The notes beneath the pieces were generated by a model. The model did not search any database. It was not told where the DNA came from and saw nothing but the letters and a program-made list of their open reading frames with translations. From Anadara kagoshimensis (taxonomy: Eukaryota; Mollusca; Bivalvia; Arcoida; Arcidae): a DNA stretch of 64,000 nucleotides. The translations under genes and the position numbers were made by a program. Each line of letters starts with the position of its first letter. The stretch's first letter is position 1. Below, piece by piece: positions 35,551 to 64,000 of the stretch. The DNA is taken from the NCBI GenBank assembly GCA_021292105.1, contig CM037857.1, positions 43,517,464 through 43,581,463 on the forward strand. The letters are read 5' to 3'.

Positions 35551-35829
35551 GTAGATCTGTTCTTCCACTGAGAGAGTCACTATTATTTACATTGTCACTT
35601 AATTGTCCATTCTCGCTTGTTCCTCCGTGGTTGTCCTATCTTCGTGCGTTAGAGACTTTAGAGTTACTTCCCTTCGCCTTTCCAAAATCCTGTGATCCGT
35701 AACGGGGTGTAAATTCGTCTGCATCAGCTGATAATCCTCTCTGACTTGGGCTCCTGTATTCCCGCGTTTTTTCCTCCGGGTTGAATAATTTTCCATCTAT
35801 ATACAGTTTGTCGTAGATTAGGCTAGCTT
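35516..35829 (-). pseudogene. LINE-2nd ORF1 C-terminal remnant
   Basis: Reads ASLIYDKLYIDGKLFNPEEK and continues ~60 codons to a stop near 35,637. DKLYIDGKLF resembles the end of the ORF1 product of many molluscan LINEs. The upstream part is displaced by E1. Confidence 0.6.
35824..35829. other. TAGCTT, left target-site duplication of E1
   Basis: These six bases belong to the LINE and recur between E1 and E2 (50,116-50,121). Confidence 0.75.
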
Positions 35830-37680
35830 TGTTACAACGCATTTGGTAACAAAAACGCATTTGGTAACAAAAATTTAAACAACTTCTAAAAATAAAATAC
35901 ACGGCATCTGAGTGTCAGTCGGAGTTGTAGATATGAAAAATAGTAGATATCTGATGAGATATCACCAAAAACAAAGAGATATCCAACTTTTCCCGAAAAC
36001 GCATTTGGTAACAAAAGTATGTTCAACGTGAAACGCATTTGGTAACAAAAATTTAAACAACTTCTAGAAATAAAATACACAGTATCTGAGTGTCAGTCGG
36101 AGTTGTAGATATGAAAAATAGTAGATATCTGATGAGATATCACCAAAATTTAACAGATATCCAACTTTTCCCGAAAACGCATTTGGTAACAAAAGTATGT
36201 TCGACCTGAAACGCATTTGGTAACAAAAATTTAAACAACTTCTAGAAATACAATACACGGCATCTGAGTGTCATTCGGAGTTGTAGATATGAAAAATAGT
36301 AGATATCTGATGAGATATCACCAAAAACAAAGAGATATCCAACTTTTCCCGAAAACGCATTTGGTAACAAAAGTATGTTCAACGTGAAACGCATTTGGTA
36401 ACAAAAATTTAAACAACTTCTAGAAATAAAATACACAGTATCTGAGTGTCAGTCGGAGTTGTAGATATGAAAAATAGTAGATATCTGATGAGATATCACC
36501 AAAATTTAACAGATATCCAACTTTTCCCGAAAACGCATTTGGTAACAAAAGTATGTTCGACCTGAAACGCATTTGGTAACAAAAATTTAAACAACTTCTA
36601 GAAATACAATACACGGCATCTGAGTGTCATTCGGAGTTGTAGATATGAAAAATAGTAGATATCTGATGAGATATCACCAAAATTTAACAGATATCCAACT
36701 TTTCCCGAAAACGCATTTGGTAACAAAAGTATGTTCGACCTGAAACGCATTTGGTAACAAAAATTTAAACAACTTCTAGAAATAAAATACACAGTATCTG
36801 AGTGTCAGTCGGAGTTGTAGATATGAAAAATAGTAGATATCTGATGAGATATCACCAAAATTTAACAGATATCCAACTTTTCCCGAAAACGCATTTGGTA
36901 ACAAAAGTATGTTCGACCTGAAACGCATTTGGTAACAAAAATTTAAACAACTTCTAGAAATACAATACACGGCATCTGAGTGTCATTCGGAGTTGTAGAT
37001 ATGAAAAATAGTAGATATCTGATGAGATATCACCAAAATTTAACAGATATCCAACTTTTCCCGAAAACGCATTTGGTAACAAAAGTATGTTCGACCTGAA
37101 ACGCATTTGGTAACAAAAATTTAAACAACTTCTAGAAATACAATACACGGCATCTGAGTGTCATTCGGAGTTGTAGATATGAAAAATAGTAGATATCTGA
37201 TGAGATATCACCAAAATTTAACAGATATCCAACTTTTCCCGAAAACGCATTTGGTAACAAAAGTATCTTCAACCTGAAACGCATTTGGTAACAAAAATTT
37301 AAACAACTTCTAGAAATAAAATACACGGCATCTAAGTGTCAGTCGGAGTGGTAGATATGAAAAATAGTAGATATCTGATGAGATATCACCAAAAACAAAG
37401 AGATATCCAACTTTTCCCGAAAACGCATTTGGTAACAAAAGTATGTTCGACCTGAAACGCATTTGGTAACAAAAATTTAAACAACTTCTAGAAATAAAAT
37501 ACACAGTATCTGAGTGTCAGTCGGAGTTGTAGATATGAAAATTAGTAGATATCTGATGAGATATCACCAAAATTTAACAGATATCCAACTTTTCCCGAAA
37601 ACGCATTTGGTAACAAAAGTATGTTCAACGTGAAACGCATTTGGTAACAAAAATTTAAACAACTTCTAGAAATAAAATAC
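35830..37680 (-). repeat. E1 left terminal array of 178-bp repeats (~10 units)
   Basis: Unit starts recur every 178 bp exactly (35,886, 36,064, 36,242 and so on to 37,310). Each unit has two copies of ACGCATTTGGTAACAAAA about 36 bp apart, and a small palindrome GATATCTGATGAGATATC. Two variant forms alternate, ACAAAGAGATATCC and TTTAACAGATATCC. Confidence 0.97.
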
Positions 37681-39853
37681 ATTGTACAATATAATTATCT
37701 TCTATAAATGGAATACACTGCCCAGGAATACCAGCAGGAGGTGTTGATGTTATATTAGAGTGTTTCCTGTAAGACATTGGTAACAAAAATGTTGGATGGC
37801 AATTAGTTTCTGTTAATTTTGTACTTAAAATTGATAACCATGTTTGGATAAAGCAAAATGCAACCGTAGATCAATTTCTGGACCCTGAGACAAACAAGAC
37901 TAAAATTCAGCTATTTAGAAGCCATTTGGATGTATATGTAACACACACAACATTCTTTCTTAATTCTTTTAATGTACAATAAGATATGACTGAGCTTTGG
38001 TTGTCGAAACGTATTTGATGTTTTCTGTTTCGGTCGCTTTTTCTAATATCAAGGATTGCGTTGTACAGTTTTTGTACCTTGTGTTTTGACATTGTGTTTA
38101 GACAAACTCAGAAACTGGTTAATGTAATCTGGATTTCGGTTTATTTCATTAATATAAATTAAAATTTCCTTAAAGATTCAGATTAGCTATTATTTAGATC
38201 TCAACTGGTTCAACCTAATTTCAAACTCACCAAAGAAAAAGACTACTTATCCTAACTTTTTCACAGAGCATTTATCTTCTCCCTCATTTTGATTTTTTCT
38301 TTGCTTCAGTTATTTCTTTTTATTTACTAAATTAATTTCTTTCTATTTGTTAGTAAACATTTTTTGAAATTCTTATTATATCCACAGCTCAATCGACCTT
38401 TATCATTCTTGTTCGCTATTCCACTTTTTTGATTCAACTAAACTATTTACGGTCTATATCTAGCTAAAAAAAGATGAAAAAGTAATAATTTCCTACTGTG
38501 TTTACCTAAATTTTGAAAGCACTCCTTATATCCGCACTTCTCCTTTGCATGTACCTCTCCACATTTCTAATATGTTACTTTTTGCTCTTGCAATCAATGT
38601 CTTTTCAATGTCCCTAGCTATGTTTAGTAGCGTTTTACCTGCTATTCGGGCTCATCTAGCAAACGAAGTTTTCTGGAGAGCCAAACGTATCTATGAAGGA
38701 AGATCTAGGAAAATGCAACCTTAGCAGTCACTAATATTGTTTTCATTATATTTGCTGTAAATACCCCTGATGGTTGTTTTAAGACATGAAGCCATTATCT
38801 AATGGATATTTTATATAATAAAGCTGCTATACTAAAATTTGTATTTGTTGGTAATGTTTCCCTGTCTCCCCAGGATCTACCAAATCTGGCTAAAAAGAAA
38901 TCATCGACATTCGACTTATGTAAAAAATATAAATGGCAATATATATATATAATAATAAAAAGGTTCTGAAACAGTGTTTGGACTCTACTGCAATATTTGT
39001 TGTATCATTCTATGTATACATGTCAAAAGGTTTGTGAATTCTTTAATTTTATGAAAAGAAAAATGTTTCCAAGATCTGGTTAATAGATTTAGGTCATGGC
39101 ACGGTTTGCTTATTACACTGGTCATAGGTTATTATTTCATATAAAATGAAATCAATTTTTTTGTTTCATATAAAATGAAACAAGAATTTGAATGTTTATT
39201 CGACCGATCTGCCCCAAAATGTTACGTATTGGCTTTATTTTTAATCATTGTAGCTTGTTTTTCTATTGTCACAGGCCACTTGTTTTACGCAAGGTACAAA
39301 ATTTCAACCAAAACCTCCAAATAATACTTCTAAAACATAATTGGAAAAGGTGAAAGATATAACAAACAATGATGTTTTGTTTAGAGCACACATTAAAAAG
39401 TTTTGCCAAAAAGTTTTTTATTTTTTCATTTTGGGGTACGGGAAACATTTTTTCTTTTAATTAAACAATAAGGTACCATATAACACTGTTTTCCACAAAA
39501 CTATCAGGGCCTTTTAAAATGATTTAACAGATTGATAACAAATTTACAAGAATCGGAAGACATACTAAAAAAATTGTTTCTGATTGAAAAAATTAGGACG
39601 AGTTGACACGTTAATAATTGGTTTTCAATACCTAGAGACATTTTCCCACATGATGGCGTTTGAAAATGGCCAATTTATTGAGAATGGGTGACAATACTAT
39701 TAATCGACTATTGTCTCAATCTTTCGTTGCTTACGTAGATGATACATCTCTTATTTGAATTTGATTTTTACACACTGTCTTTTGTTAATACAACGTTTGA
39801 TCTAAGTGCTGAAGAAAAAGGCGTAGTCTCCTGTCGCTGGTGTATGCGTTATA
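37681..39853. other. E1 non-coding region upstream of the integrase ORF
   Basis: AT-rich. A relic of the terminal motif (CATTGGTAACAAAAAT) lies at ~37,777. A (TA)n tract is near 38,940. A doubled palindrome is at 39,135-39,180. I see no credible additional gene. Confidence 0.6.
39135..39180. promoter_or_regulatory. Two copies of palindrome TTTCATATAAAATGAAA
   Basis: Identical 17-bp dyads at 39,135-39,151 and 39,164-39,180, ~0.7 kb upstream of the ORF, and again in E2 at 63,385-63,401 and 63,414-63,430. They could be binding sites for a dimeric regulator or the integrase. Function is inference. Confidence 0.4.
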
Positions 39854-42800
39854 ATGGGGCTGCGAGAGCTAGAGCCAGAAACGTACGACACTCTCCTGAA
39901 AATTGTTAAAGGCGAATTTAAAAAACCAGTGAATTTGCGAACTCGACTGGAAAACAATGCTCGCGTCTTATATTGGCGGAGAAAAGAAGGTCTTTATATT
40001 GAAAAACACAATGGCATTGACATTTTAATGTATGAAGGTAGACAGGTCCTTACAAAGAAAGAGTTTCAAAAAAATGTCAGCAAACATGTCATTAAAAGTA
40101 AAGGTGGAAATGCCCGAGCATTGAGCCATACCATGAAACAACACTATACGGGCTGCAGTGAAAGGAAAGTAATGGGTCTTTTAAAAAAAAATAAACAGCA
40201 TGGATACATTCATGCAAAATTCAATAACAAGGCCCCACTAAGACCGATCAGTGCGTCAAGGGTATTTCAAAGGGTCCAGATTGACCTTCTTAGCATGAGA
40301 GACCAATCTGTGATATATGAAAACAAGACCTTTAATTATATTTTGACAGCTGTGGATGTCTTCTCTAGATTCATATTTGTTAGAGCTCTGACTAATAAAA
40401 CTGCCAAAAATGTGGCAATCGCTCTTAAGCAAATTTTTGGAGAACATGGTTACCCGGAAATTATTCAATGTGACAATGGACCGGAATTTTTCGGTGACGT
40501 ACAGAAATTCCTTTGTAAAAAAAACGTAAAAATGATAAGGGGTCGGCCATACCACCCTGAGTCTCAAGGGAAAGTAGAAAGACAGAACAGAATAATTCGA
40601 GATAAAATCCGTTTCGATTCTTTGAGAAGTAGTAATTGTGGTTCGAATTGGGTGGAACATCTCCCTGCTGTAGCAGAAGCCATAAATAATCAACCAAAGG
40701 AAGTACTTGGATATCAAACACCGTTTCAGTGCTATTTTGGGAGGGGTCAAAATATCTCTGCTGATGTTATTCGTAAAAAAGCTAAAGTAGCATCGGAAAG
40801 ATGTCAAAGGCGTACTGTTTTGGCCCAAAACAGAAAGAACGGTTGTTCCATTTACAAAAGAGGGGACAGGGTTCTTCTGAAACACCCATTCGGACGTAGC
40901 CGTGTTCCGTATAAACGGTGTGTCCTAAAAGCGAAAATTTTGAAAAGGGTTCGTAATTTTGACAAATATTTCGTAGTATTCAAAGATAGAAACAACAAAG
41001 AGACAAAAAAGTGGGTGAGAGTTGAAAATATAACGAGCAGAACAAACAAGGAAGAGCTCGATAGAAGGGCTCGAGCCAAAGAAATATTTGAAAAACTTGA
41101 GCAAAAGAGGATTCACAGGTGCAAATACTATATACCTCTAGAATCTTCTGAGAAGGAAAACATTGGCGAAGACACGCGTAAACAAATGGAAATATATTGT
41201 GAAGACCATTGCGAAGAGACAGAGGTCAACATAGGTAACCAAAACAACAGGACGAGGTACTTTTGTGGCAATAATAGAGTGCTTATTAGTGAAGATCCGA
41301 TAGGAGACGGTAGCTGCCAATTTGGAGCAATTGCCCCACAAATTCGAAAACTTGGCATACATAAAACACCTCAAAATTTGCGAGCTATTGCTGTACAACA
41401 CCTTGAATCAAACAGCGACCATTACAGTAACTTTTTGCATGAAGACAGGAACTTCGAATCCTATATTGCAGAAATGCGTAGACCGTATGCATATGGGGAC
41501 AATCTGACTCTTCAGGCTCTGGCCAGGGAGTTTAATTGTCAATTTTTAGTTTTGAACTCCCTTGGTGGCACGTATCACCGAATAGTCTCAAATATGAGTA
41601 CTTTTAACAGCTCACTGCCTCTTCTAACACTTGGTTATTATCCAGAGGATAGGGGAGATCATTATGTTTCTGTGGAAGTGGAAACGACGTATCTTAAGAG
41701 TATAATTAGCCAGATCGTATCCCTGGAAAGTGGTATTCAACCAAATGTGGGCCATGCAACCCAACCAGATGTTGTCAGTACCGCAAATATACATCCAATT
41801 GATGCAACCGATACACCTCTAGTTAATGCTGATAATATGACTGGTGCATTTTCAACTGAAGATTCTAGTATAAATGATATGCTCCCACCTGATGTTACTA
41901 ACATTAACGCCGCTGATGCGCTACCACAGGATGATATCAATGCAGCTGATCTATCAAAGGAATATTTCAATGCTGCTGATGCGCTTTTACAGGATGATTC
42001 CATTGCGGTTGATGAGTTATTACACGGTGATGATGACAATGCGGCTGATGAACTTCAAACTGATGTTGTCGATTTGCCTAATGCGCTTGCACCTGATGTT
42101 ACTAGCACAGCTGGCGCACTTTCAAATGAATATTCCAATGCTGCTGATGCGCTTTTACAGGATGATTCCATTGCGGTTGATGAGTTATTACACGGTGATG
42201 ATGACAATGCGGCTGATGAACTTCAAACTGATGTTGTCGATTTGCCTAATGCGCTTGCACCTGATGTTACTAGCACAGATGGTGCACTTTCAAAGGACGA
42301 TGCCAGTATGGTTAGTACGCTTCCTTGTGACGATGCTAACGTAGCTGATGATGGGCTTTCACATGGTTTTGACACTGCAGATAATGCGCTTATATCCGAA
42401 ATTCAAGCGAATGAGCATGATGCCAGTGTGAACCGTGCGCTTAGACCTGATGTTGCCAATATGACTGATACGCTTGTGCACGATGCCGTAGTGTCGCATC
42501 TTGGTTCAAATGTTGTTACTCTGCCGTATCTGCCTGATATGATTTTGGAGAATATTGTTCGTGTTAGTATTGAAATGTTCCCACTCACGCGGTATCGATT
42601 ACAGTACGTCTGTCGACGTTTTCGCGAGATCGTTCTCTCAATTGGGTATCCAACCATTCATTTAAGCCCAAATATCATGCCTATTGTTCCTTGGGTTGTA
42701 AGTGTACGTCGCTTGCGCCGGATGTTTGGGTCACATAGTGGAGTATTGTTTGAAGTAAAACAAGTTTTGTCCGGGTCAGAACGTCGATGGGATTTCGCAT

Positions 42801-42865
42801 GGTTGAGATTACGTGAAACAGAAAATAACTGGTTCGAAATCCGAAATATTGGTTGGCGCCATTAA
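39854..42865 (+). CDS. DD35E integrase / OTU protease / F-box-like fusion protein of E1
   Basis: The ORF is 1,003 aa. The ATG is set by an in-frame TAG ten codons upstream with no other Met between. A degenerate zinc-finger-like segment (H92, H97, cysteines lost) precedes an rve integrase core with D144 (QIDLLSM), D207 (QCDNGPEF) and E242 (GKVER), a DD35E triad. An SH3-like integrase C-terminal segment (KRGDRVLLKHPF, ~335-395) follows. Residues ~470-612 look like an OTU cysteine protease: GDGSCQFGAI gives D485 and C488, and EDRGDHYVSV gives H603. Residues 640-885 are acidic and repetitive, with one exact-looking 56-residue duplication (706-761 and 762-817). The end (LPDMILENIV...LQYVCRRFREIV, ~890-927) fits an F-box. 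It should cut and join element ends in the nucleus; the ubiquitin-linked domains might stabilise the protein or alter host factors. No introns are seen. Confidence 0.9.
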   Translation: MGLRELEPETYDTLLKIVKGEFKKPVNLRTRLENNARVLYWRRKEGLYIEKHNGIDILMYEGRQVLTKKEFQKNVSKHVIKSKGGNARALSHTMKQHYTGCSERKVMGLLKKNKQHGYIHAKFNNKAPLRPISASRVFQRVQIDLLSMRDQSVIYENKTFNYILTAVDVFSRFIFVRALTNKTAKNVAIALKQIFGEHGYPEIIQCDNGPEFFGDVQKFLCKKNVKMIRGRPYHPESQGKVERQNRIIRDKIRFDSLRSSNCGSNWVEHLPAVAEAINNQPKEVLGYQTPFQCYFGRGQNISADVIRKKAKVASERCQRRTVLAQNRKNGCSIYKRGDRVLLKHPFGRSRVPYKRCVLKAKILKRVRNFDKYFVVFKDRNNKETKKWVRVENITSRTNKEELDRRARAKEIFEKLEQKRIHRCKYYIPLESSEKENIGEDTRKQMEIYCEDHCEETEVNIGNQNNRTRYFCGNNRVLISEDPIGDGSCQFGAIAPQIRKLGIHKTPQNLRAIAVQHLESNSDHYSNFLHEDRNFESYIAEMRRPYAYGDNLTLQALAREFNCQFLVLNSLGGTYHRIVSNMSTFNSSLPLLTLGYYPEDRGDHYVSVEVETTYLKSIISQIVSLESGIQPNVGHATQPDVVSTANIHPIDATDTPLVNADNMTGAFSTEDSSINDMLPPDVTNINAADALPQDDINAADLSKEYFNAADALLQDDSIAVDELLHGDDDNAADELQTDVVDLPNALAPDVTSTAGALSNEYSNAADALLQDDSIAVDELLHGDDDNAADELQTDVVDLPNALAPDVTSTDGALSKDDASMVSTLPCDDANVADDGLSHGFDTADNALISEIQANEHDASVNRALRPDVANMTDTLVHDAVVSHLGSNVVTLPYLPDMILENIVRVSIEMFPLTRYRLQYVCRRFREIVLSIGYPTIHLSPNIMPIVPWVVSVRRLRRMFGSHSGVLFEVKQVLSGSERRWDFAWLRLRETENNWFEIRNIGWRH

Positions 42866-44002
42866 CATGTTCTCATGAATATTTTTTTATTTTTCAAACA
42901 TTGTGCTCCAATGATTTAATTCATATTTGTTTTACTAGTATAAGTTTACATTACAAGGTCGTAAATTCAACTAGGTTTTTTTTGCTTCTCATTGTTTATT
43001 AGATTTTTGTTATTTGTCGATAATTTGTACCATCTTTTTGTGTATTGTGAATGTTCTATGCAACATTAAAGCGATTAAGTGTCATTTGCTCTCAAAAATT
43101 ATAATTGTCCAGTATTTTTATAGCTTCTTATTTAATTTGATTTTAGTTTGTAGATTATATCAGGAAGGTGCATGTGATAGTTTAAATCAAAACTATTTTG
43201 ATTGACGGCAAACTTATTTTGATATATATGTCTGTAAATAAATAATCAAAAAATAAGTAAAGGTATAAATTGATATATAAATAAGAAATGACATACGAAA
43301 ATGAATAATAATCAAAATAACTATGGTCATTGTGTGTGTGTGTGTTTTGTTTTTTAACATTCTTTCAAGACATGACTATTACGTGTACATAATGTACAAA
43401 TTATAATTTTATAAGATTATTTTTGTTGTAACCGGTTAGATAACATAATCATAACGTGTATACATTATCTTGAACTAGTAAGGGCTAAAACATCTTTTCT
43501 CATCACAATATTGATATTATTATAAACACCATTCCAATTCTTAACCAAACCCATAACATTTTTTTAATTTTATTTGCAATGTTAAGAAAGTTTGTCACAC
43601 GAACCCGTGTATTAATTATGGGGATGTTTCTCATTTTTCATCAATCCCAAAGTGGTTAGCCACAAGAGTCAAATCGTTAGAGTAAATGCACTTCCAAACT
43701 GCTAAATGATTATGTTTGAACACTTTGCCTCTTGTTGTTTCTGCAGTATGAGTTGCGGTTAGTGTCTGGTGCATCAAATTGTGCAATAAACCACCACTCA
43801 CTGCTTACTGAAACTTTAAGTTCTTGCTAAAATAGAAAGTAGGCAATATTTTGTTGTACTACAATGAAATGATACCATCACCATAGTTACATATAGTAAT
43901 TATATATTTTCTATATCAGTTATACTAACTAATGTTACTGAAGAATGATAACCTTAAGACTTTTTTTAAACAAGCATTCTGAGAGTATTGCAAAACAATA
44001 CA
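42866..44002. other. E1 non-coding region after the ORF
   Basis: AT-rich with a short (TG)n run near 43,330. Nothing gene-like. Confidence 0.6.
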
Positions 44003-44004
44003 TA

Positions 44005-44760
44005 GTCCCCTACCGGTCGCATATTTCACTAATCCCAAAGTTTTAGGTAAAATGTACCTTATTATATGGTACAAAGATTTATAGTTATAAATTATACGTG
44101 CTGTTTAAGATGAAAGCAAAACTCGATCATAGTAAAATCAAAAACCAGCAATGGAGTTCTCAAAAAATCATTATCTGCAAGCAAGTAGAAAAAAGTGCTA
44201 AAAACTGAAATTTCATTAAATTTTCAAAGTTCAAAGGGCCATAACTCCCATAAAAACTAGTGGAATGAAACGAAAAATAAACTTGATCTCTAACTCATCA
44301 TGGTTGACCTGCATACCAAAAAACAAATCATTAACTGCAAGCGTGTAGAAAAAAAGAGCAGAAAACTGAAATTTCAGTGAATTTTCAAAGATCAAAGGGC
44401 CATAACTCCGGTTAAAATCAGCAGATGGATACGGAACGTAAACTTGATCTGTAACTCATCATGGTAGACTCATATACCAAAAATCAGTTCATTAAATAAA
44501 AGTATTTAGAAAAAAGTGCGGAAAACTGAAATTTCAGTGAATTTTCAAAGTTCAAAGGGCCATAACTCATGTAAAAATTTGCGGACCAGAATAAAACGCT
44601 AACTTGATCTGCAACTCATCATGGTAGACTCACATACAAAAAATCAGTTCATTATCTACAAAAAAGTGTGGAAAACTGAGGTGTGAGAGACGGACGGACG
44701 GACAGACAGATAGACAGAGCGCAAACCTAAAGTCCCCTTCGGCTTTCGCCGGTAGGGGAC
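44005..44760. mobile_element. Nested non-autonomous element with GTCCCCTACCGG ends (in E1)
   Basis: Inverted ends GTCCCCTACCGG are flanked by TA on both sides (44,003-44,004 and 44,761-44,762). Inside are about four tandem ~130-bp units with TTCAAAGGGCCATAACTC, then a (GACG)n-like stretch. It was present before E1/E2 duplication, because E2 has it too. Confidence 0.75.
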
Positions 44761-44762
44761 TA

Positions 44763-45603
44763 AAATTAAGCAAAAAATGAGAAAATAATTTTGTTATTGG
44801 TAAATAATTTTACTCTTGTAAGCTGCCGAAAGTACTTAAGCATTAAGTTGTACACGCTTTTACTCTTTTTGGGGGTAATTACATACACAAGAAAAGTTCA
44901 TACAAATAATACTGTGATATACAAGTTACAGTCATTCCAATGTTTCCATACCACTAATGATTTGTTCAAAATTACAACCGGCTATGTGCCTGTTATTATG
45001 TCTATAGATAAATTTAGAAAATTTATATAACCCCCTAACAAAAGTGATTACAACACTAGTAACGGCCTGCTCATCTGGTAGGTGGTAGGTGGGTGTATCG
45101 TGTATATTTTGTATATACATGTATGTTATTAAAAACAAAAACAAAAACAAAAAACAAAAAAAACCTGCCAGACAGTTTTCAAGCTTAACGTGTTTGGCTG
45201 GCTTCGCCCTAACAGGAAACTGGTTAAATTGTTTAATTCCAGTCTGCATTAGGTATGATTGAACAAAAGTTTTAACGGACAATGATTAAACATTTTATTA
45301 AGCTTTATCTGAATAAAAGCTTAAAAATGACAGTGATGTCAATAGCCCGTCAACCAGGACCGTACTTAAACAAAATTGGCATCACTTTTTCTTAAACTTG
45401 ATCTGCAAAATATCACTGCGACCTTTTTTGTAGTCTTACAGAAAAAAGCATTTTCTGGAATCATTTTCTAAAGCTGTTAGTTAGCTTTTCCAATAATATT
45501 GGGAAAATACAATGTATATGGCAACTAATTCCAGCTCGTAAATAACTGCCCACTCGATATACATAGAAAAAGAACTGGACACAGAACAGCATTAAAAGAA
45601 ACC
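44763..45603. other. E1 non-coding spacer
   Basis: Includes an (AAAAAC)n-like tract near 45,130-45,165 that differs in length from the E2 copy, and otherwise unique AT-rich DNA. ORFs here are low-complexity. Confidence 0.5.
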
Positions 45604-46600
45604 AACAAGAGGCCCATGGGCCTTAACGCTCACCTGATGCAGAGTACATATCTTATGCAGAGGTTCAATGGTCAATGACATTAATAAAAGAGAATATCAA
45701 AATTTTCAGCAGTAAGGGCAAATAATATGCAAGTATTTTTGCAAATTAATTTTAATAATTATTATATAAGTATGCTATATATAACATATCTAAAGTCTAG
45801 CTACAATATATTATTTATAAACAGCTAAAACATCTATATATTAAAATACGCATCAGGCCAATACCTACAATATTCTAAGATAAGATACATGCCTATACAA
45901 AATGTTTATAATTTTTGAGATAATTAACCATTTAAGTATTTGTTCGTGTCTATGACCTTGAACTTTGAGCCTATGACCTTTATTCATATATCAAAATGAT
46001 GGTTGTGCAAATGCCCACAATATTCTAATATACATGCCGTTACAAAAAGTTTATAGTTTTAAGATAATTGGTCATTTAAATATTCGTTTGCATCTATGAC
46101 CTTGACCTTTTAACCTATGACCTTTATTCATATATCAAAATGATTGTTAGGCCAATACCTACAATATTCCAATATACATGCCTATGCAAAATGTTTATAG
46201 ATAAGAAATATTGACCAATACATTAATTTTAGTGATTTTCCACTTAAGTACATTGCCATTTCCCCATTTTGGTCCTTACAGCTACGATTTGTGCAAATCT
46301 GAAACTAGATGCTCTAAGTATGTTTCACATGAAATATCTATGCTATATCTCTTGTAAGTTCAGAGGAGATGATTTTTAAAGATTTTCACAATTTCCCCCT
46401 TTATAGGGCCCCAAGGGGACATAATCCTTTTATTTGTGCAAATCTGAAAGACCTTTACCTAGGCATCATAATCACTAAGTTTCATCAAATTTGGCTTGGT
46501 AGTTATAGAGAAGATGATTAAAATGTACAAAGTTAACAGACGACGGACGGTGAACCATTGCAATAGCTCATCTGAGCTTTCAGCTCAGGTGAGCTAAAAA
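45604..46600. mobile_element. Dispersed bivalve-type repeat, AGAGGCCCATGGGCC...AGGTGAGCT (in E1)
   Basis: Begins AACAAGAGGCCCATGGGCCT and ends with a hairpin AGCTCATCTGAGCTTTCAGC followed by TCAGGTGAGCT. The middle has three diverged ~180-bp repeats with CTATGACCTTGA. From memory, repeats with these ends are abundant in bivalve genomes. No ORF. Confidence 0.7.
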
Positions 46601-47212
46601 TGTAGATTATGTTAAAAAGGTTTCCAAACTTCCGATTCAGAGAATGTTTTGGCAGTACAACAGGGAAATAACACAAAAGCGCGTTCTTTTGCAACATACA
46701 AATGAAATGTATAAATGACTTCAATAAGTTTTCGTTAATCATTTAATCGGAATAACATCTTTGACACCCAATTTTGACTTCTCTTCTGAAACAACTGAAC
46801 ATATATTCTGAAGTGTATATAGGCTGGTGTAGTTCAGATTTATTCGTGGCGTTGCTACGGTTACCATAACTAAGACAAGGTGTTTCAAGAAGCAAAAACA
46901 TTTTCTCTCCGTAACCGATAATGGAAAAATATGATGTTGCATTAACCTCTGAAGGTTTTACCCTTTAGAAATATTCGGTAGAAAAATGGGTGCCACATCT
47001 TTGTGTGAATTTCGTAAAATGGCTTCTAATTATGACAGTTTACATCAGGTTTCAATTTTTACTTTCTTTTGAAATGACCTTCAAAATGGGTCGAAGTAAG
47101 ATGTCAATAGCTGAAAATTGCTATATCTTAAAACTGGGTCGAGGTAATGGCTTTGCTTGGTATGTGTGCTTTTGTTTCTATTTTAGCTTATAATTGGGAA
47201 CATTTCAAAGAA
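46601..47212. other. E1 non-coding spacer
   Basis: Unique-looking DNA without recognised coding content. Confidence 0.5.
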
Positions 47213-50115: not shown

Positions 50116-50121
50116 TAGCTT
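50116..50121. other. TAGCTT junction between E1 and E2
   Basis: Six bases, identical to the left flank of E1, lie between GTAACA (end of E1) and TGTTAC (start of E2). Confidence 0.8.
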
Positions 50122-53100
50122 TGTTACAACGCATTTGGTAACAAAAACGCATTTGGTAACAAAAATTTAAACAACTTCTAGAAATATAATACATGGCATC
50201 TGAGTGTCATTCGGAGTTGTAAATATGAAAAATAGTAGATATCTGATGAGATATCACCAAAAACAAAGAGATATCCAACTTTTCCCGAAAACGCATTTGG
50301 TAACAAAAGTATGATCGACCTGAAACGCATTTGGTAACAAAAATTTAAACAACTTCTAGAAATAAAATACACAGTATCTGAGTGTCAGTCGGAGTTGTAG
50401 ATATGACAAATAGTAGATATCTGATGAAATATCACCAAAATTTAACAGATATCCAACTTTTCCCGAAAACGCATTTGGTAACAAAAGTATGTTCAACCTG
50501 AAACGCATTTGGTAACAAAAATTTAAACAACTTCTAGAAATAAAATACACGGCATCTGAGTGTCAGTCGGAGTTGTAGATATGACAAATAGTAGATATCT
50601 GATGAGATATTACCAAAATTTAACAGATATCCAACTTTTCCCGAAAACGCATTTGGTAACAAAAGTATGATCGACCTGAAACGCATTTGGTAACAAAAAT
50701 TTAAACAACTTCTAGAAATAAAATACACAGTATCTGAGTGTCAGTCGGAGTTGTAGATATGACAAATAGTAGATATCTGATGAAATATCACCAAAATTTA
50801 ACAGATATCCAACTTTTCCCGAAAACGCATTTGGTAACAAAAGTATGTTCAACCTGAAACGCATTTGGTAACAAAAATTTAAACAACTTCTAGAAATAAA
50901 ATACACGGCATCTGAGTGTCAGTCGGAGTTGTAGATATGACAAATAGTAGATATCTGATGAAATATCACCAAAATTTAACAGATATCCAACTTTTCCCGA
51001 AAACGCATTTGGTAACAAAAGTATGTTCGACCTGAAACGCATTTGGTAACAAAATTTAAACAACTTCTAGAAATAAAATACACAGTATCTGAGTGTCAGT
51101 CGGAGTTGTAGATATGACAAATAGTAGATATCTGATGAAATATCACCAAAATTTAACAGATATCCAACTTTTCCCGAAAACGCATTTGGTAACAAAAGTA
51201 TGTTCGACCTGAAACGCATTGGTAACAAAAATTTAAACAACTTCTAGAAATACAATACACGGCACTGAGTGTCATTCGGAGTTGTAGATATGAAAAATAG
51301 TAGATATCTGATGAGATATCACCAAAATTTAACAGATATCCAACTTTTCCCGAAAACGCATTTGGTAACAAAAGTATCTTCAACCTGAAACGCATTTGGT
51401 AACAAAAAATTAAACAACTTCTAGAAATAAAATACACGGCATCTAAGTGTCAGTCGGAGTGGTAGATATGAAAAATAGTAGAAATCTGATGAGATATCAC
51501 CAAAAACAAAGAGATATCCAACTTTTCCCGAAAACGCATTTGGTAACAAAAGTATGTTTGACCTGAAACGCATTTGGTAACAAAAATTTAAACAACTTCT
51601 AGAAATAAAATACACAGTATCTGAGTGTCAGTCGGAGTTGTAGATATGACAAATAGTAGATATCTGATGAGATATCATTAAAATTTAACAGATATCCTAC
51701 TTTTCCCGAAAACGCATTTGGTAACAAAAGTATGTTCAACCTGAAACGCATTTGGTAACAAAAATTTAAACAACTTCTAGAAATAAAATACACGGCATCT
51801 AAGTGTCAGTCGGAGTGGTAGATATGAAAAATAGTAGATATCTGATGAGATATCACCAAAAACAAAGAGATATCCAACTTTTCCCGAAAACGCATTTGGT
51901 AACAAAAGTATGTTCAACCTGAAACGCATTGGTAACAAAAATTTAAACAACTTCTAGAAATAAAATACACAGTATCTGAGTGTCAGTCGGAGTTGTAGAT
52001 ATGACAAATAGTAGATATCTGATGAAATATCACCAAAATTTAACAGATATCCAACTTTTCCCGAAAACGCATTTGGTAACAAAAGTATGTTCAACCTGAA
52101 ACGCATTTGGTAACAAAAATTTAAACAACTTCTAGAAATAAAATACACGGCATCTGAGTGTCAGTCGGAGTTGTAGATATGACAAATAGTAGATATCTGA
52201 TGAGATATCACCAAAATTTAACAGATATCCAACTTTTCCCGAAAACGCATTTGGTAACAAAAGTATGATCGACCTGAAACGCATTTGGTAACAAAAATTT
52301 AAACAACTTCTAGAAATAAAATACACAGTATCTGAGTGTCAGTCGGAGTTGTAGATATGACAAATAGTAGATATCTGATGAAATATCACCAAAATTTAAC
52401 AGATATCCAACTTTTCCCGAAAACGCATTTGGTAACAAAAGTATGTTCGACCTGAAACGCATTTGGTAACAAAAATTTAAACAACTTCTAGAAATACAAT
52501 ACACGGCATCTGAGTGTCATTCGGAGTTGTAGATATGAAAAATAGTAGATATCTGATGAGATATCACCAAAATTTAACAGATATCCAACTTTTCCCGAAA
52601 ACGCATTTGGTAACAAAAGTATCTTCAACCTGAAACGCATTTGGTAACAAAAATTTAAACAACTTCTAGAAATAAAATACACGGCATCTAAGTGTCAGTC
52701 GGAGTGGTAGATATGAAAAATAGTAGAAATCTGATGAGATATCACCAAAAACAAAGAGATATCCAACTTTTCCCGAAAACGCATTTGGTAACAAAAGTAT
52801 GTTTGACCTGAAACGCATTTGGTAACAAAAATTTAAACAACTTCTAGAAATAAAATACACAGTATCTGAGTGTCAGTCGGAGTTGTAGATATGACAAATA
52901 GTAGATATCTGATGAGATATCATTAAAATTTAACAGATATCCTACTTTTCCCGAAAACGCATTTGGTAACAAAAGTATGTTCAACCTGAAACGCATTTGG
53001 TAACAAAAATTTAAACAACTTCTAGAAATAAAATACACGGCATCTAAGTGTCAGTCGGAGTGGTAGATATGAAAAATAGTAGATATCTGATGAGATATCA

Positions 53101-54890
53101 CCAAAAACAAAGAGATATCCAACTTTTCCCGAAAACGCATTTGGTAACAAAAGTATGTTCAACCTGAAACGCATTTGGTAACAAAAATTTAAACAACTTC
53201 TAGAAATAAAATACACAGTATCTGAGTGTCAGTCGGAGTTGTAGATATGAAAATAGTAGATATCTGATGAAATATCACCAAAATTTAACAGATATCCAAC
53301 TTTTCCCGAAAACGCATTTGGTAACAAAAGTATGTTCAACCTGAAACGCATTTGGTAACAAAAATTTAAACAACTTCTAGAAATAAAATACACGGCATCT
53401 GAGTGTCAGTCGGAGTTGTAGATATGACAAATAGTAGATATCTGATGAGATATCACCAAAATTTAACAGATATCCAACTTTTCCCGAAAACGCATTTGGT
53501 AACAAAAGTATGATCGACCTGAAACGCATTGGTAACAAAAATTTAAACAACTTCTAGAAATAAAATACACAGTATCTGAGTGTCAGTCGGAGTTGTAGAT
53601 ATGACAAATAGTAGATATCTGATGAAATATCACCAAAATTTAACAGATATCCAACTTTTCCCGAAAACGCATTTGGTAACAAAAGTATGTTCGACCTGAA
53701 ACGCATTGGTAACAAAAATTTAAACAACTTCTAGAAATACAATACACGGCATCTGAGTGTCATTCGGAGTTGTAGATATGAAAAATAGTAGATATCTGAT
53801 GAGATATCACCAAAATTTAACAGATATCCAACTTTTCCCGAAAACGCATTTGGTAACAAAAGTATCTTCAACCTGAAACGCATTTGGTAACAAAAATTTA
53901 AACAACTTCTAGAAATAAAATACACGGCATCTAAGTGTCAGTCGGAGTGGTAGATATGAAAAATAGTAGAAATCTGATGAGATATCACCAAAAACAAAGA
54001 GATATCCAACTTTTCCCGAAAACGCATTTGGTAACAAAAGTATGTTTGACCTGAAACGCATTTGGTAACAAAAATTTAAACAACTTCTAGAAATAAAATA
54101 CACAGTATCTGAGTGTCAGTCGGAGTTGTAGATATGACAAATAGTAGATATCTGATGAGATATCATTAAAATTTAACAGATATCCTACTTTTCCCGAAAA
54201 CGCATTTGGTAACAAAAGTATGTTCAACCTGAAACGCATTTGGTAACAAAAAATTAAACAACTTCTAGAAATAAAATACACGGCATCTAAGTGTCAGTCG
54301 GAGTGGTAGATATGAAAAATAGTAGAAATCTGATGAGATATCACCAAAAACAAAGAGATATCCAACTTTTCCCGAAAACGCATTTGGTAACAAAAGTATG
54401 TTTGACCTGAAACGCATTTGGTAACAAAAATTTAAACAACTTCTAGAAATAAAATACACAGTATCTGAGTGTCAGTCGGAGTTGTAGATATGACAAATAG
54501 TAGATATCTGATGAGATATCATTAAAATTTAACAGATATCCTACTTTTCCCGAAAACGCATTTGGTAACAAAAGTATGTTCAACCTGAAACGCATTTGGT
54601 AACAAAAATTTAAACAACTTCTAGAAATAAAATACACGGCATCTAAGTGTCAGTCGGAGTGGTAGATATGAAAAATAGTAGATATCTGATGAGATATCAC
54701 CAAAAACAAAGAGATATCCAACTTTTCCCGAAAACGCATTTGGTAACAAAAGTATGTTCAACCTGAAACGCATTTGGTAACAAAAATTTAAACAACTTCT
54801 AGAAATAAAATACACGGCATCTGAGTGTCAGTCGGAGTTGTAGATATGACAAATAGTAGATATCCTATGAGATATCACCAAAAACAAAGA
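50122..54890 (-). repeat. E2 terminal array of 178-bp repeats (~27 units) with higher-order structure
   Basis: About twice as long as the corresponding E1 array. Variant units recur every seven units: a variant with GTAGAAATCTGATG starts at 51,421, 52,666 and 53,909, and a variant with ATATCATTAAAATTTAAC at 51,599, 52,844 and 54,087, which gives a ~1,244-bp higher-order repeat. Confidence 0.95.
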
Positions 54891-55104
54891 GATATTGAAC
54901 TTTTCCTGACTTTAACCTTTAATCCTGACTCCATTATAGGAAACATCAAAATTAAAATAAAAGAAATGATGTCAAAATGTTTACATATAGACAAGACAGA
55001 GCAATTAAAGGCTTAAATGGCAAAGTAGGTCATGACATTGACCTTTGATCTTAGGTATATCTTCTTGCAATCCTAGGCGTATGAAGGCTCTCAAAAAGTC
55101 TTAT

Positions 55105-57803: not shown

Positions 57804-58560
57804 GTCCCCTACCGGCGAAAGCCGAAGGGGACTTTAGGTTTGCGCTCTGTCTATCTGTCTGTCCGTCCGTCCGTCTCTCACACCTCAGTTTTCCACACTT
57901 TTTTTGTAGATAATGAACTGATTTTTTGTATGTGAGTCTACCATGATGAGTTGCAGATCAAGTTAGCGTTTTATTCTGGTCCGCAAATTTTTACATGAGT
58001 TATGGCCCTTTGAACTTTGAAAATTCACTGAAATTTCAGTTTTCCGCACTTTTTTCTAAATACTTTTATTTAATGAACTGATTTTTGGTATATGAGTCTA
58101 CCATGATGAGTTACAGATCAAGTTTACGTTCCGTATCCATCTGCTGATTTTAACCGGAGTTATGGCCCTTTGATCTTTGAAAATTCACTGAAATTTCAGT
58201 TTTCTGCTCTTTTTTTCTACACGCTTGCAGTTAATGATTTGTTTTTTGGTATGCAGGTCAACCATGATGAGTTAGAGATCAAGTTTATTTTTCGTTTCAT
58301 TCCACTAGTTTTTATGGGAGTTATGGCCCTTTGAACTTTGAAAATTTAATGAAATTTCAGTTTTTAGCACTTTTTTCTACTTGCTTGCAGATAATGATTT
58401 TTTGAGAACTCCATTGCTGGTTTTTGATTTTACTATGATCGAGTTTTGCTTTCATCTTAAACAGCACGTATAATTTATAACTATAAATCTTTGTACCATA
58501 TAATAAGGTACATTTTACCTAAAACTTTGGGATTAGTGAAATATGCGACCGGTAGGGGAC
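57804..58560. mobile_element. Nested GTCCCCTACCGG-ended element (in E2)
   Basis: Same TA-flanked element as in E1, one base longer. Confidence 0.75.
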
Positions 58561-58562
58561 TA

Positions 58563-59699
58563 TGTATTGTTTTGCAATACTCTCAGAATGCTTGTTTAAA
58601 AAAAGTCTTAAGGTTATCATTCTTCAGTAACATTAGTTAGTATAACTGATATAGAAAATATATAATTACTATATGTAACTATGGTGATGGTATCATTTCA
58701 TTGTAGTACAACAAAATATTGCCTACTTTCTATTTTAGCAAGAACTTAAAGTTTCAGTAAGCAGTGAGTGGTGGTTTATTGCACAATTTGATGCACCAGA
58801 CACTAACCGCAACTCATACTGCAGAAACAACAAGAGGCAAAGTGTTCAAACATAATCATTTAGCAGTTTGGAAGTGCATTTACTCTAACGATTTGACTCT
58901 TGTGGCTAACCACTTTGGGATTGATGAAAAATGAGAAACATCCCCATAATTAATACACGGGTTCGTGTGACAAACTTTCTTAACATTGCAAATAAAATTA
59001 AAAAAATGTTATGGGTTTGGTTAAGAATTGGAATGGTGTTTATAATAATATCAATATTGTGATGAGAAAAGATGTTTTAGCCCTTACTAGTTCAAGATAA
59101 TGTATACACGTTATGATTATGTTATCTAACCGGTTACAACAAAAATAATCTTATAAAATTATAATTTGTACATTATGTACACGTAATAGTCATGTCTTGA
59201 AAGAATGTTAAAAAACAAAACACACACACACACAATGACCATAGTTATTTTGATTATTATTCATTTTCGTATGTCATTTCTTATTTATATATCAATTTAT
59301 ACCTTTACTTATTTTTTGATTATTTATTTACAGACATATATATCAAAATAAGTTTGCCGTCAATCAAAATAGTTTTGATTTAAACTATCACATGCACCTT
59401 CCTGATATAATCTACAAACTAAAATCAAATTAAATAAGAAGCTATAAAAATACTGGACAATTATAATTTTTGAGAGCAAATGACACTTAATCGCTTTAAT
59501 GTTGCATAGAACATTCACAATACACAAAAAGATGGTACAAATTATCGACAAATAACAAAAATCTAATAAACAATGAGAAGCAAAAAAAACCTAGTTGAAT
59601 TTACGACCTTGTAATGTAAACTTATACTAGTAAAACAAATATGAATTAAATCATTGGAGCACAATGTTTGAAAAATAAAAAAATATTCATGAGAACATG
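58563..59699. other. E2 non-coding region downstream of the ORF
   Basis: Mirror of 42,866-44,002 with a (CA)n run near 59,222. No gene. Confidence 0.6.
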
Positions 59700-62600
59700 T
59701 TAATGGCGCCAACCAATATTTCGGATTTCGAACCAGTTATTTTCTGTTTCACGTAATCTCAACCATGCGAAATCCCATCGACGTTCTGACCCGGACAAAA
59801 CTTGTTTTACTTCAAACAATACTCCACTATGTGACCCAAACATCCGGCGCAAGCGACGTACACTTACAACCCAAGGAACAATAGGCATGATATTTGGGCT
59901 TAAATGAATGGTTGGATACCCAATTGAGAGAACGATCTCGCGAAAACGTCGACAGACGTACTGTAATCGATACCGCGTGAGTGGGAACATTTCAATACTA
60001 ACACGAACAATATTCTCCAAAATCATATCAGGCAGATACGGCAGAGTAACAACATTTGAACCAAGATGCGACACTACGGCATCGTGCACAAGCGTATCAG
60101 TCATATTGGCAACATCAGGTCTAAGCGCACGGTTCACACTGGCATCATGCTCATTCGCTTGAATTTCGGATATAAGCGCATTATCTGCAGTGTCAAAACC
60201 ATGTGAAAGCCCATCATCAGCTACGTTAGCATCGTCACAAGGAAGCGTACTAACCATACTGGCATCGTCCTTTGAAAGTGCACCATCTGTGCTAGTAACA
60301 TCAGGTGCAAGCGCATTAGGCAAATCGACAACATCAGTTTGAAGTTCATCAGCCGCATTGTCATCATCACCGTGTAATAACTCATCAACCGCAATGGAAT
60401 CATCCTGTAAAAGCGCATCAGCAGCATTGGAATATTCATTTGAAAGTGCGCCAGCTGTGCTAGTAACATCAGGTGCAAGCGCATTAGGCAAATCGACAAC
60501 ATCAGTTTGAAGTTCATCAGCCGCATTGTCATCATCACCGTGTAATAACTCATCAACCGCAATGGAATCATCCTGTAAAAGCGCATCAGCAGCATTGAAA
60601 TATTCCTTTGATAGATCAGCTGCATTGATATCATCCTGTGGTAGCGCATCAGCGGCGTTAATGTTAGTAACATCAGGTGGGAGCATATCATTTATACTAG
60701 AATCTTCAGTTGAAAATGCACCAGTCATATTATCAGCATTAACTAGAGGTGTATCGGTTGCATCAATTGGATGTATATTTGCGGTACTGACAACATCTGG
60801 TTGGGTTGCATGGCCCACATTTGGTTGAATACCACTTTCCAGGGATACGATCTGGCTAATTATACTCTTAAGATACGTCGTTTCCACTTCCACAGAAACA
60901 TAATGATCTCCCCTATCCTCTGGATAATAACCAAGTGTTAGAAGAGGCAGTGAGCTGTTAAAAGTACTCATATTTGAGACTATTCGGTGATACGTGCCAC
61001 CAAGGGAGTTCAAAACTAAAAATTGACAATTAAACTCCCTGGCCAGAGCCTGAAGAGTCAGATTGTCCCCATATGCATACGGTCTACGCATTTCTGCAAT
61101 ATAGGATTCGAAGTTCCTGTCTTCATGCAAAAAGTTACTGTAATGGTCGCTGTTTGATTCAAGGTGTTGTACAGCAATAGCTCGCAAATTTTGAGGTGTT
61201 TTATGTATGCCAAGTTTTCGAATTTGTGGGGCAATTGCTCCAAATTGGCAGCTACCGTCTCCTATCGGATCTTCACTAATAAGCACTCTATTATTGCCAC
61301 AAAAGTACCTCGTCCTGTTGTTTTGGTTACCTATGTTGACCTCTGTCTCTTCGCAATGGTCTTCACAATATATTTCCATTTGTTTACGCGTGTCTTCGCC
61401 AATGTTTTCCTTCTCAGAAGATTCTAGAGGTATATAGTATTTGCACCTGTGAATCCTCTTTTGCTCAAGTTTTTCAAATATTTCTTTGGCTCGAGCCCTT
61501 CTATCGAGCTCTTCCTTGTTTGTTCTGCTCGTTATATTTTCAACTCTCACCCACTTTTTTGTCTCTTTGTTGTTTCTATCTTTGAATACTACGAAATATT
61601 TGTCAAAATTACGAACCCTTTTCAAAATTTTCGCTTTTAGGACACACCGTTTATACGGAACACGGCTACGTCCGAATGGGTGTTTCAGAAGAACCCTGTC
61701 CCCTCTTTTGTAAATGGAACAACCGTTCTTTCTGTTTTGGGCCAAAACAGTACGCCTTTGACATCTTTCCGATGCTACTTTAGCTTTTTTACGAATAACA
61801 TCAGCAGAGATATTTTGACCCCTCCCAAAATAGCACTGAAACGGTGTTTGATATCCAAGTACTTCCTTTGGTTGATTATTTATGGCTTCTGCTACAGCAG
61901 GGAGATGTTCCACCCAATTCGAACCACAATTACTACTTCTCAAAGAATCGAAACGGATTTTATCTCGAATTATTCTGTTCTGTCTTTCTACTTTCCCTTG
62001 AGACTCAGGGTGGTATGGCCGACCCCTTATCATTTTTACGTTTTTTTTACAAAGGAATTTCTGTACGTCACCGAAAAATTCCGGTCCATTGTCACATTGA
62101 ATAATTTCCGGGTAACCATGTTCTCCAAAAATTTGCTTAAGAGCGATTGCCACATTTTTGGCAGTTTTATTAGTCAGAGCTCTAACAAATATGAATCTAG
62201 AGAAGACATCCACAGCTGTCAAAATATAATTAAAGGTCTTGTTTTCATATATCACAGATTGGTCTCTCATGCTAAGAAGGTCAATCTGGACCCTTTGAAA
62301 TACCCTTGACGCACTGATCGGTCTTAGTGGGGCCTTGTTATTGAATTTTGCATGAATGTATCCATGCTGTTTATTTTTTTTTAAAAGACCCATTACTTTC
62401 CTTTCACTGCAGCCCGTATAGTGTTGTTTCATGGTATGGCTCAATGCTCGGGCATTTCCACCTTTACTTTTAATGACATGTTTGCTGACATTTTTTTGAA
62501 ACTCTTTCTTTGTAAGGACCTGTCTACCTTCATACATTAAAATGTCAATGCCATTGTGTTTTTCAATATAAAGACCTTCTTTTCTCCGCCAATATAAGAC

Positions 62601-62711
62601 GCGAGCATTGTTTTCCAGTCGAGTTCGCAAATTCACTGGTTTTTTAAATTCGCCTTTAACAATTTTCAGGAGAGTGTCGTACGTTTCTGGCTCTAGCTCT
62701 CGCAGCCCCAT
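59700..62711 (-). CDS. DD35E integrase / OTU protease / F-box-like fusion protein of E2
   Basis: The translated protein is identical over all 1,003 residues to that of E1, including D144, D207, E242, the OTU residues D485, C488 and H603, and the F-box-like end. Overlapping reading frames on the opposite strand are also identical, so the 3-kb DNA is essentially unchanged between copies. Both copies are therefore potentially functional. Confidence 0.9.
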   Translation of the reverse strand: MGLRELEPETYDTLLKIVKGEFKKPVNLRTRLENNARVLYWRRKEGLYIEKHNGIDILMYEGRQVLTKKEFQKNVSKHVIKSKGGNARALSHTMKQHYTGCSERKVMGLLKKNKQHGYIHAKFNNKAPLRPISASRVFQRVQIDLLSMRDQSVIYENKTFNYILTAVDVFSRFIFVRALTNKTAKNVAIALKQIFGEHGYPEIIQCDNGPEFFGDVQKFLCKKNVKMIRGRPYHPESQGKVERQNRIIRDKIRFDSLRSSNCGSNWVEHLPAVAEAINNQPKEVLGYQTPFQCYFGRGQNISADVIRKKAKVASERCQRRTVLAQNRKNGCSIYKRGDRVLLKHPFGRSRVPYKRCVLKAKILKRVRNFDKYFVVFKDRNNKETKKWVRVENITSRTNKEELDRRARAKEIFEKLEQKRIHRCKYYIPLESSEKENIGEDTRKQMEIYCEDHCEETEVNIGNQNNRTRYFCGNNRVLISEDPIGDGSCQFGAIAPQIRKLGIHKTPQNLRAIAVQHLESNSDHYSNFLHEDRNFESYIAEMRRPYAYGDNLTLQALAREFNCQFLVLNSLGGTYHRIVSNMSTFNSSLPLLTLGYYPEDRGDHYVSVEVETTYLKSIISQIVSLESGIQPNVGHATQPDVVSTANIHPIDATDTPLVNADNMTGAFSTEDSSINDMLPPDVTNINAADALPQDDINAADLSKEYFNAADALLQDDSIAVDELLHGDDDNAADELQTDVVDLPNALAPDVTSTAGALSNEYSNAADALLQDDSIAVDELLHGDDDNAADELQTDVVDLPNALAPDVTSTDGALSKDDASMVSTLPCDDANVADDGLSHGFDTADNALISEIQANEHDASVNRALRPDVANMTDTLVHDAVVSHLGSNVVTLPYLPDMILENIVRVSIEMFPLTRYRLQYVCRRFREIVLSIGYPTIHLSPNIMPIVPWVVSVRRLRRMFGSHSGVLFEVKQVLSGSERRWDFAWLRLRETENNWFEIRNIGWRH

Positions 62712-64000
62712 TATAACGCATACACCAGCGACAGGAGACTACGCCTTTTTCTTCAGCACTTAGATCAAACGTTGTATTAACAAAAGACAGTGTGTAAAAA
62801 TCAAATTCAAATAAGAGATGTATCATCTACGTAAGCAACGAAAGATTGAGACAATAGTCGATTAATAGTATTGTCACCCATTCTCAATAAATTGGCCATT
62901 TTCAAACGCCATCATGTGGGAAAATGTCTCTAGGTATTGAAAACCAATTATTAACGTGTCAACTCGTCCTAATTTTTTCAATCAGAAACAATTTTTTTAG
63001 TATGTCTTCCGATTCTTGTAAATTTGTTATCAATCTGTTAAATCATTTTAAAAGGCCCTGATAGTTTTGTGGAAAACAGTGTTATATGGTACCTTATTGT
63101 TTAATTAAAAGAAAAAATGTTTCCCGTACCCCAAAATGAAAAAATAAAAAACTTTTTGGCAAAACTTTTTAATGTGTGCTCTAAACAAAACATCATTGTT
63201 TGTTATATCTTTCACCTTTTCCAATTATGTTTTAGAAGTATTATTTGGAGGTTTTGGTTGAAATTTTGTACCTTGCGTAAAACAAGTGGCCTGTGACAAT
63301 AGAAAAACAAGCTACAATGATTAAAAATAAAGCCAATACGTAACATTTTGGGGCAGATCGGTCGAATAAACATTCAAATTCTTGTTTCATTTTATATGAA
63401 ACAAAAAAATTGATTTCATTTTATATGAAATAATAACCTATGACCAGTGTAATAAGCAAACCGTGCCATGACCTAAATCTATTAACCAGATCTTGGAAAC
63501 ATTTTTCTTTTCATAAAATTAAAGAATTCACAAACCTTTTGACATGTATACATAGAATGATACAACAAATATTGCAGTAGAGTCCAAACACTGTTTCAGA
63601 ACCTTTTTATTATTATATATATATATTGCCATTTATATTTTCTACATAAGTCGAATGTCGATGATTTCTTTTTAGCCAGATTTGGTAGGTCCTGGGGAGA
63701 CAGGGAAACATTACCATCAAATACAAATTTTAGTATAGCAGCTTTATTATATAAAATATCCATTAGATAATGGCTTCATCATCAGGGGTATTTACAGCAA
63801 ATATAATGAAAACAATATTAGTGACTGCTAAGGTTGCATTTTCCTAGATCTTCCTTCATAGATACGTTTGGCTCTCCAGAAAACTTCGTTTGCTAGATGA
63901 GCCCGAATAGCAGGTAAAACGCTACTAAACATAGCTAGGGACATTGAAAAGACATTGATTGCAAGAGCAAAAAGTAACATATTAGAAATGTGGAGAGGTA
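62712..64000. other. E2 region upstream of the ORF, running off the window
   Basis: Mirror of 38,565-39,853, with the doubled palindrome at 63,385-63,430. A small deletion relative to E1 lies near 63,778-63,786. Nothing gene-like. Confidence 0.6.

Follow-up and report, generated by a model that had tools for sequence, protein, structure and literature searches.

An inverted pair of integrase/OTU transposons sharing a 6-bp target in Anadara kagoshimensis, probably the outcome of two separate insertions

The genome of the bivalve Anadara kagoshimensis carries, in and just past the 64,000-nucleotide stretch analysed here (hereafter the window; GenBank assembly GCA_021292105.1, contig CM037857.1, positions 43,517,464 to 43,581,463), two copies of a large DNA transposon that encodes an integrase/OTU protein. 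The two copies, E1 and E2, lie in opposite orientation and share a 6-bp target, the full order being TAGCTT - E1 - TAGCTT - inverted E2 - TAGCTT. This arrangement probably results from two separate insertions, the second of them exactly at a target copy beside the first. Read in this way, the locus preserves in clean form the natural outcome of two insertions at one 6-bp site. Such a double event is rare, and it hints that the element may now and then target its own ends.

The window belongs to contig C1 of an assembly of 1.115 Gb in 36 contigs. Coordinates follow the numbering of the window, and positions above 64000 are window-equivalent ones taken from the adjoining 15 kb of the same contig. 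A first-pass annotation of the window had described two 14-kb elements that abut through TAGCTT alone, with another TAGCTT to the left of E1, and had predicted that a third TAGCTT and the remainder of an interrupted long interspersed nuclear element (LINE) would be found past the far end of E2. The order of target copies, the junction and the predicted far end are all borne out; the length of 14 kb is right for E1, and E2 proved to be longer. The features are as follows (ORF, open reading frame; aa, amino acids).

35824-35829, first copy of the 6-bp target TAGCTT
35830-50115, + strand, E1, integrase/OTU DNA transposon of 14,286 bp with TGTTAC...GTAACA ends
35830-37681, + strand, left terminal array of E1, about 10 units of 178 bp (about 1.9 kb), most units containing two AACGCATTTGGTAACAAAA motifs
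39854-42865, + strand, E1 ORF of 1003 aa with rve integrase core, OTU protease and a conserved C-terminal part of about 110 aa
47667-50115, - strand, right terminal array of E1, about 13 units (about 2.4 kb), inverted relative to the left array
50116-50121, middle TAGCTT, common to E1 and E2, between GTAACA and TGTTAC
50122-67064, - strand, E2, inverted, total length 16,943 bp, the part past 64000 lying outside the window
50122-54906, + strand, right terminal array of E2, about 26-27 units (about 4.8 kb), adjoining E1 via TAGCTT
59700-62711, - strand, E2 ORF of 1003 aa, its protein identical to that of E1
67065-67070, third TAGCTT, just past the far end of E2 and followed by new flank
34907-35829, - strand, LINE with an endonuclease-like frame and part of an ORF1-like frame, cut by the insertions
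from 67071, remaining ORF1-like frame of the LINE, past E2

Within each element the left and right arrays are inverted relative to each other and make up the long terminal inverted repeats, the left array of E2 comprising about 12 units (about 2.2 kb), and all four ends read TGTTACAACGCATTTGGTAACAAAAACGC inward with 0 mismatches. The ends that abut at the junction are both right ends, i.e., those lying downstream of the ORF. A string made of two ends exactly 6 bp apart, the spacing covered by the search, occurs at one place genome-wide at up to 3 mismatches and is seen there on both strands. The interiors form inverted arms of 5,880 nucleotides (38786-44665 and 57900-63779) whose complementarity rounds to 100%; three substitutions stand at the start of the arms and the next 5,742 nucleotides are identical.

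When the outer flanks are joined, with both transposons and the two extra copies of TAGCTT removed, a 217-codon open frame runs across the site and is followed by the endonuclease-like frame, so that the LINE sequence carries on beyond E2. Judged from this restored frame, the two outer flanks seem to belong to a single LINE copy, in which the original target would have been one TAGCTT. The LINE assignment of the left flank comes from reverse-transcriptase matches on the minus strand and from a weak Pfam match to Exo_endo_phos in the frame at 34907-35512 (expectation value, E, 0.0004, below the curated cut-off). The reverse-transcriptase matches fall in three minus-strand frames (29747-31273, 32088-33374 and 33380-34291) within 29747-35515, and two LINE copies may therefore sit side by side there.

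The target rule and the duplication length of the family can be read from dozens of copies. A genome-wide search with the terminal 29-mer at up to 3 mismatches returned 123 forward and 117 reverse matches, i.e., 240 ends, and the reversed control returned 0; this corresponds to about 120 elements if all ends are paired. Of the 38 other elements for which both ends were read, 35 have an exact 6-bp duplication, from which 6 bp is taken to be the stagger of the enzyme. The target is a palindromic NAGCTN centred on GC (68 of 80 sampled flank 6-mers are GC-centred and 30 carry AGCT), and a weaker preference, also symmetric, is seen two to three bases beyond the edges of the 6-mer; TAGCTT or its complement AAGCTA makes up 5 of the 80. 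These 6-mers were treated as independent and exclude the locus itself, recurring flanks at duplicated loci being kept and the ends of non-matching pairs being counted apart; the flank listing covers the first 100 of 139 flanks not starting with T. Among the 35 duplications is ATGCAC, which perfectly flanks a 310-bp non-autonomous derivative composed mostly of end sequence (C3:32555420-32555729) and indicates that short non-autonomous copies move. The intact 1003-codon frame is found in E1, E2 and one further copy, and six copies are 98.9-99.8% alike around the gene (longest matches). The copy at C3:33575070 has lost the last bases of its right end, which makes its duplication unscorable; it encodes the same 1003-aa protein, and its left array measures about 5 kb or more, with about 30 unit starts.

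The favoured account of the locus would run as follows. The element would be an integrase transposon of the cut-and-paste type (or copy-out/paste-in), and E1 and E2 would have arrived separately. The integrase would join the TGT...ACA ends to the two strands of the palindromic NAGCTN with a 6-bp stagger, gap repair then copying the 6 bp. One element would first have entered TAGCTT inside the LINE; the other, oppositely oriented, would afterwards have landed precisely on one of the TAGCTT copies at the sides of the first, so that the target now stands there three times, although this order of events is itself inferred. For the second insertion, TAGCTT would have combined a favoured 6-mer sequence with a position near a resident end, and help beyond the bare 6-mer, if any, would most likely have come from integrase held near the resident end by the end-like repeat arrays.

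Comparison with other copies supports separate arrivals. It was made on alignments of fetched stretches that not every copy spans in full, and for the arrays it covers five or six copies, several of them partial. Relative to the copies on C3, C5 and C7, a 76-bp stretch of E1 contains 3 substitutions private to E1, and just beside them E2 has a 13-bp deletion of its own; these private differences uphold the earlier argument that point changes and a 13-bp deletion between the arms speak against a fold-back. Up to about 5 kb, no change common to E1 and E2 alone was found against two or more aligned copies; beyond about 5 kb only the C3 copy is comparable, and it differs from both E1 and E2 at a few places. 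The arrays change faster than the unique part and are more informative. Over its terminal 650 bp, the right array of E2 is 99.2% identical to that of the C13 copy (4 mismatches and 1 gap), vs. 96.0% (same register, 17 mismatches and 9 gaps) or 96.9% (best register) to that of E1. The C13 copy is likewise the best match in 11 of 12 windows of this array and E1 in 1 of 12, and in the left array of E2 the best match is the C7 or C13 copy in 4 of 5 windows and E1 in 1 of 5. We read E1 and E2 as two copies from the same young pool, neither apparently made from the other. That they are sisters was considered and set aside, as no private change shared by the two was found in the aligned copies and the arrays of E2 point elsewhere; a close relation is kept alive by the 5,742-bp identity.

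That identity is one of several points that weigh against two separate insertions. E1 equals E2 over 5,742 bp of the unique part, after the private sites, whereas every other pair compared differs by substitutions or indels in its unique sequence; E1-C13 and E2-C13 come closest, with 0 substitutions and 6 gaps in 4,337 bp. The array windows of E1 are nearest those of E2 in 5 of 6 cases on the right and 3 of 4 on the left, by margins that are mostly small. We take the 5,742-bp identity to be ancestral sequence kept by both copies, but it also fits conversion from one arm to the other or a close local relation. Three of the 38 other elements (C4:15875024, C7:24840190 and C11:41308865) are without a matching duplication. 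Finally, chance alone would yield about 0.001 flush pairs, assuming 120 elements and the 6-mer preference matrix, so that plain independent insertion needs either luck or self-attraction, and the finding of one such junction implies that self-attraction is not frequent.

Luck without any attraction, i.e., two insertions that happened upon one favoured site, is a special case of the two-insertion account, and we give it slightly less than an even chance. The preference matrix, which draws on 30 other sites, puts the use of TAGCTT at about 74-fold that of an average position, and this raises the chance of a coincidence accordingly; one flush junction is also little when set against 240 ends, and with many transposon families being examined in many genomes a rare event will turn up somewhere. 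On the other hand, the expectation of about 0.001 within the E1/E2 family speaks against coincidence, and so does a second, rearranged insertion beside the element's own end-array sequence. The latter lies at C7:37026756-37040696 and is bounded on the outside by a matching pair of duplications (AGGCAG/AGGCAG); inside it, an additional left end stands at 37032628 right after end-array sequence TTTCAGGTCG. This composite probably records an insertion into or beside the element's own end that was later reshaped by array recombination.

Insertions into the element's own arrays are expected about 0.05 times by chance (a rough estimate from about 3 kb of arrays in each of 120 elements), and two self-associated cases against this expectation give a value of about 0.001, which flatters self-targeting because both cases were noticed before counting. 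The suggestion of the first-pass annotation that the integrase targets its own junction thus stands as possible rather than proven, with one clear case, the flush pair among 240 ends, and one rearranged case. Two stretches of the window resemble the empty site of the C7 composite, namely the E1 interior at 47405-47458 (7 mismatches in 54) and positions 23394-23447 outside the element (6 in 54), and E1 accordingly seems to contain a stretch of a dispersed repeat. The element at C2:40475785-40481128, with an empty site identical at 49 of 54 positions to the E1 interior at 45636-45689, was not counted as self-targeting, being either nested in a diverged relative or placed in a repeat common to both.

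A broader proposal, which we offer tentatively and regard as rather unlikely in its entirety, would be that of a eukaryotic IS481/IS3-like integrase with a dual target choice resembling that of IS30. Such an enzyme would use NAGCTN hot spots and, less often, a hot-spot copy beside a resident end; the arrays of end-like repeats would serve as a landing platform capturing incoming transpososomes, and the resulting flush inverted pairs could be mobilised as giant composites. With an intact gene in three copies and six copies nearly identical around that gene, the family lends itself to studying whether integrase transposons of eukaryotes, in the manner of the bacterial IS30, are able to target their own ends.

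The insertion of a dimer or tandem intermediate, which the first-pass annotation had also entertained, now appears improbable. In that case E1, spacer and E2 would have moved as one unit by their outer ends, and the middle TAGCTT would be the donor's and would equal the new duplication by coincidence; since TAGCTT or AAGCTA accounts for 5 of the 80 target 6-mers, the chance of this in the required orientation is about 3%. The 31-kb unit would moreover be almost double the longest copy measured. In favour of a dimer, the C7 composite indicates that an extra internal end can occur between matching outer duplications, and IS30 transposition intermediates are described as including circular dimers with abutted ends, although those junctions join a left and a right end (PMC9333248) and the present one joins two right ends.

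A single insertion followed by inverted duplication, through replication fold-back or a sister-chromatid event, and by subsequent divergence of the arrays, would account for the inverted order, for a 5,742-bp identity cleaner than that of every other compared pair and for the E1 array windows lying mostly nearest those of E2. We nonetheless hold it to be more doubtful still. A clean third TAGCTT stands at the far end with the LINE in frame beyond it, the arrays differ in length by kilobases, and the junction-side array of E2 resembles that of a copy on another contig more than that of E1; besides, the 98.9-99.8% likeness of copies on other contigs makes high similarity a property of the whole family. 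An assembly artefact (fold-back or merged haplotypes) is very improbable: long inverted repeats do assemble poorly, and the many small unit-length shifts in the right array of E1 (172-178 bp) could be residual errors, but private differences, unequal arrays, three exact target copies and a restored LINE frame are unlike a fold-back product, and a haplotype merge would itself require two insertions at one 6-bp site.

The identification of E1 and E2 as integrase transposons, proposed in the first place from the window, is supported by the one long frame of E1, which all other frames of at least 120 aa in the element overlap; the seven smaller interior frames have no Pfam match at E ≤ 0.05. The 1003-aa protein contains the integrase core rve (residues 136-235, E 5e-15) and the OTU protease PF02338 (residues 484-573, E 2.3e-9); in the latter region the motif C488-Q-F is invariant in all 16 aligned rows (E1 and 15 homologues), a later His-Tyr is present in most rows, and OTUD5 was matched in a profile search. 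The C-terminal stretch of about 110 aa, kept in most homologues, has no Pfam match at E ≤ 0.1 and looks F-box-like by eye. No H2C2 finger was matched in Pfam at E ≤ 0.1, and inspection of the translation by eye found no C-x-x-C pair upstream of the core. By profile, the nearest solved structure is the integrase of prototype foamy virus (PFV; E 7.7e-22), and in a search with the predicted fold the PFV and Ty3 intasomes rank first (E 4e-17 and 4e-15; mean predicted local distance difference test 68.5 and predicted template modelling score 0.36 for the model); both profile and model point to a DDE core with a predicted fold like that of retroviral/Ty3-type intasomes. Among NCBIfam profiles, that of the prokaryotic IS481 family is far ahead (E 3.6e-28), followed by IS3, IS30 (E 1.1e-9) and IS21, all below curated cut-offs. 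This ranking, the lack of a detected H2C2 finger and the fold matches suggest that the enzyme probably acts as IS481/IS3 or retroviral-type integrases do, with a stagger of 6 bp. Between the OTU domain and the C-terminal part (at about 41900-42300), an acidic stretch of about 50 aa is duplicated internally; it falls in a low-confidence region of the model and is probably disordered. No relative was confirmed by tblastn in viral and prokaryotic genome collections; 149 plasmid records matched, all at less than 60% identity, and the 20 matches listed are 24-32% identical, 14 of them being annotated as IS3 family transposases.

Judged by its features, the E1/E2 family is nearer to IS3EU/GingerRoot than to Ginger1. 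IS3EU and GingerRoot are described as having an integrase core without an upstream HHCC finger and usually 6-bp duplications, with TG..CA ends occasional in GingerRoot and TA..TA ends in complete IS3EU families; duplications of about 4, 15 or 25 bp are given for IS481EU (PMC10045372). The E1/E2 family resembles them in its 6-bp duplication and in that no HHCC-type finger was found, but differs in its OTU protease, its length of 14-17 kb and its terminal arrays of 178-bp units. Its ends are TG..CA, the rarer form in GingerRoot. The terms “OTU” and “subterminal” do not occur in the main text of that source. Ginger1 elements are reported to possess an integrase fused on its C-terminal side to an OTU or Ulp1 protease, TGTNR ends, an H2C2 finger, terminal inverted repeats of 40-270 bp, lengths of 2.6-7 kb and 4-bp CCGG/CCGT duplications (PMC2836005). 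The E1/E2 family shares the integrase-OTU fusion, with the protease on the C-terminal side, and TGTTA ends that fit TGTNR, but departs from Ginger1 in the finger, in repeat size, in length and in its 6-bp NAGCTN-like duplication. With Polinton/Maverick elements it has in common a 6-bp duplication, an integrase and a length of about 15 kb; no polymerase, packaging ATPase or capsid was seen among the frames of E1, where intron-split genes could escape notice. Polinton ends are AG...CT, unlike the TGTTAC...GTAACA of E1 and E2.

IS30 selects either a hot spot or its own end (PMC9333248), and its profile also matches the E1 protein, as stated above. End-targeting by IS30 joins left to right and leaves an active junction, whereas here right meets right with a normal 6-bp duplication on each side. 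A closer parallel in layout is reportedly the double insertion of the Drosophila P element at singed, which is said to involve two elements in opposite orientation with one common target duplication; the P element differs in its unrelated transposase and 8-bp duplication, and a literature search for P-element double insertions returned nothing fitting. The literature on nested insertion and self-insertion provides general cases, including self-insertions of P{lacW} (PMC4744444). A search on Ginger, OTU, IS3EU and GingerRoot relatives, judged by titles and the beginnings of abstracts and with the original GingerRoot paper outside its results, retrieved no element with the full set of features. 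The E1/E2 family thus adds an integrase/OTU element of 14-17 kb, with satellite-like arrays as terminal repeats, to a group that we know mostly as shorter elements.

Elsewhere in the family, some ends have identical 12-bp flanks although they lie about 160-800 kb apart, namely C1:23487591 and C1:24292603, C13:22106628 and 22699549, and C2:14979595 and 15141044, a pattern pointing to segmental duplications or to insertions into a single repeat.

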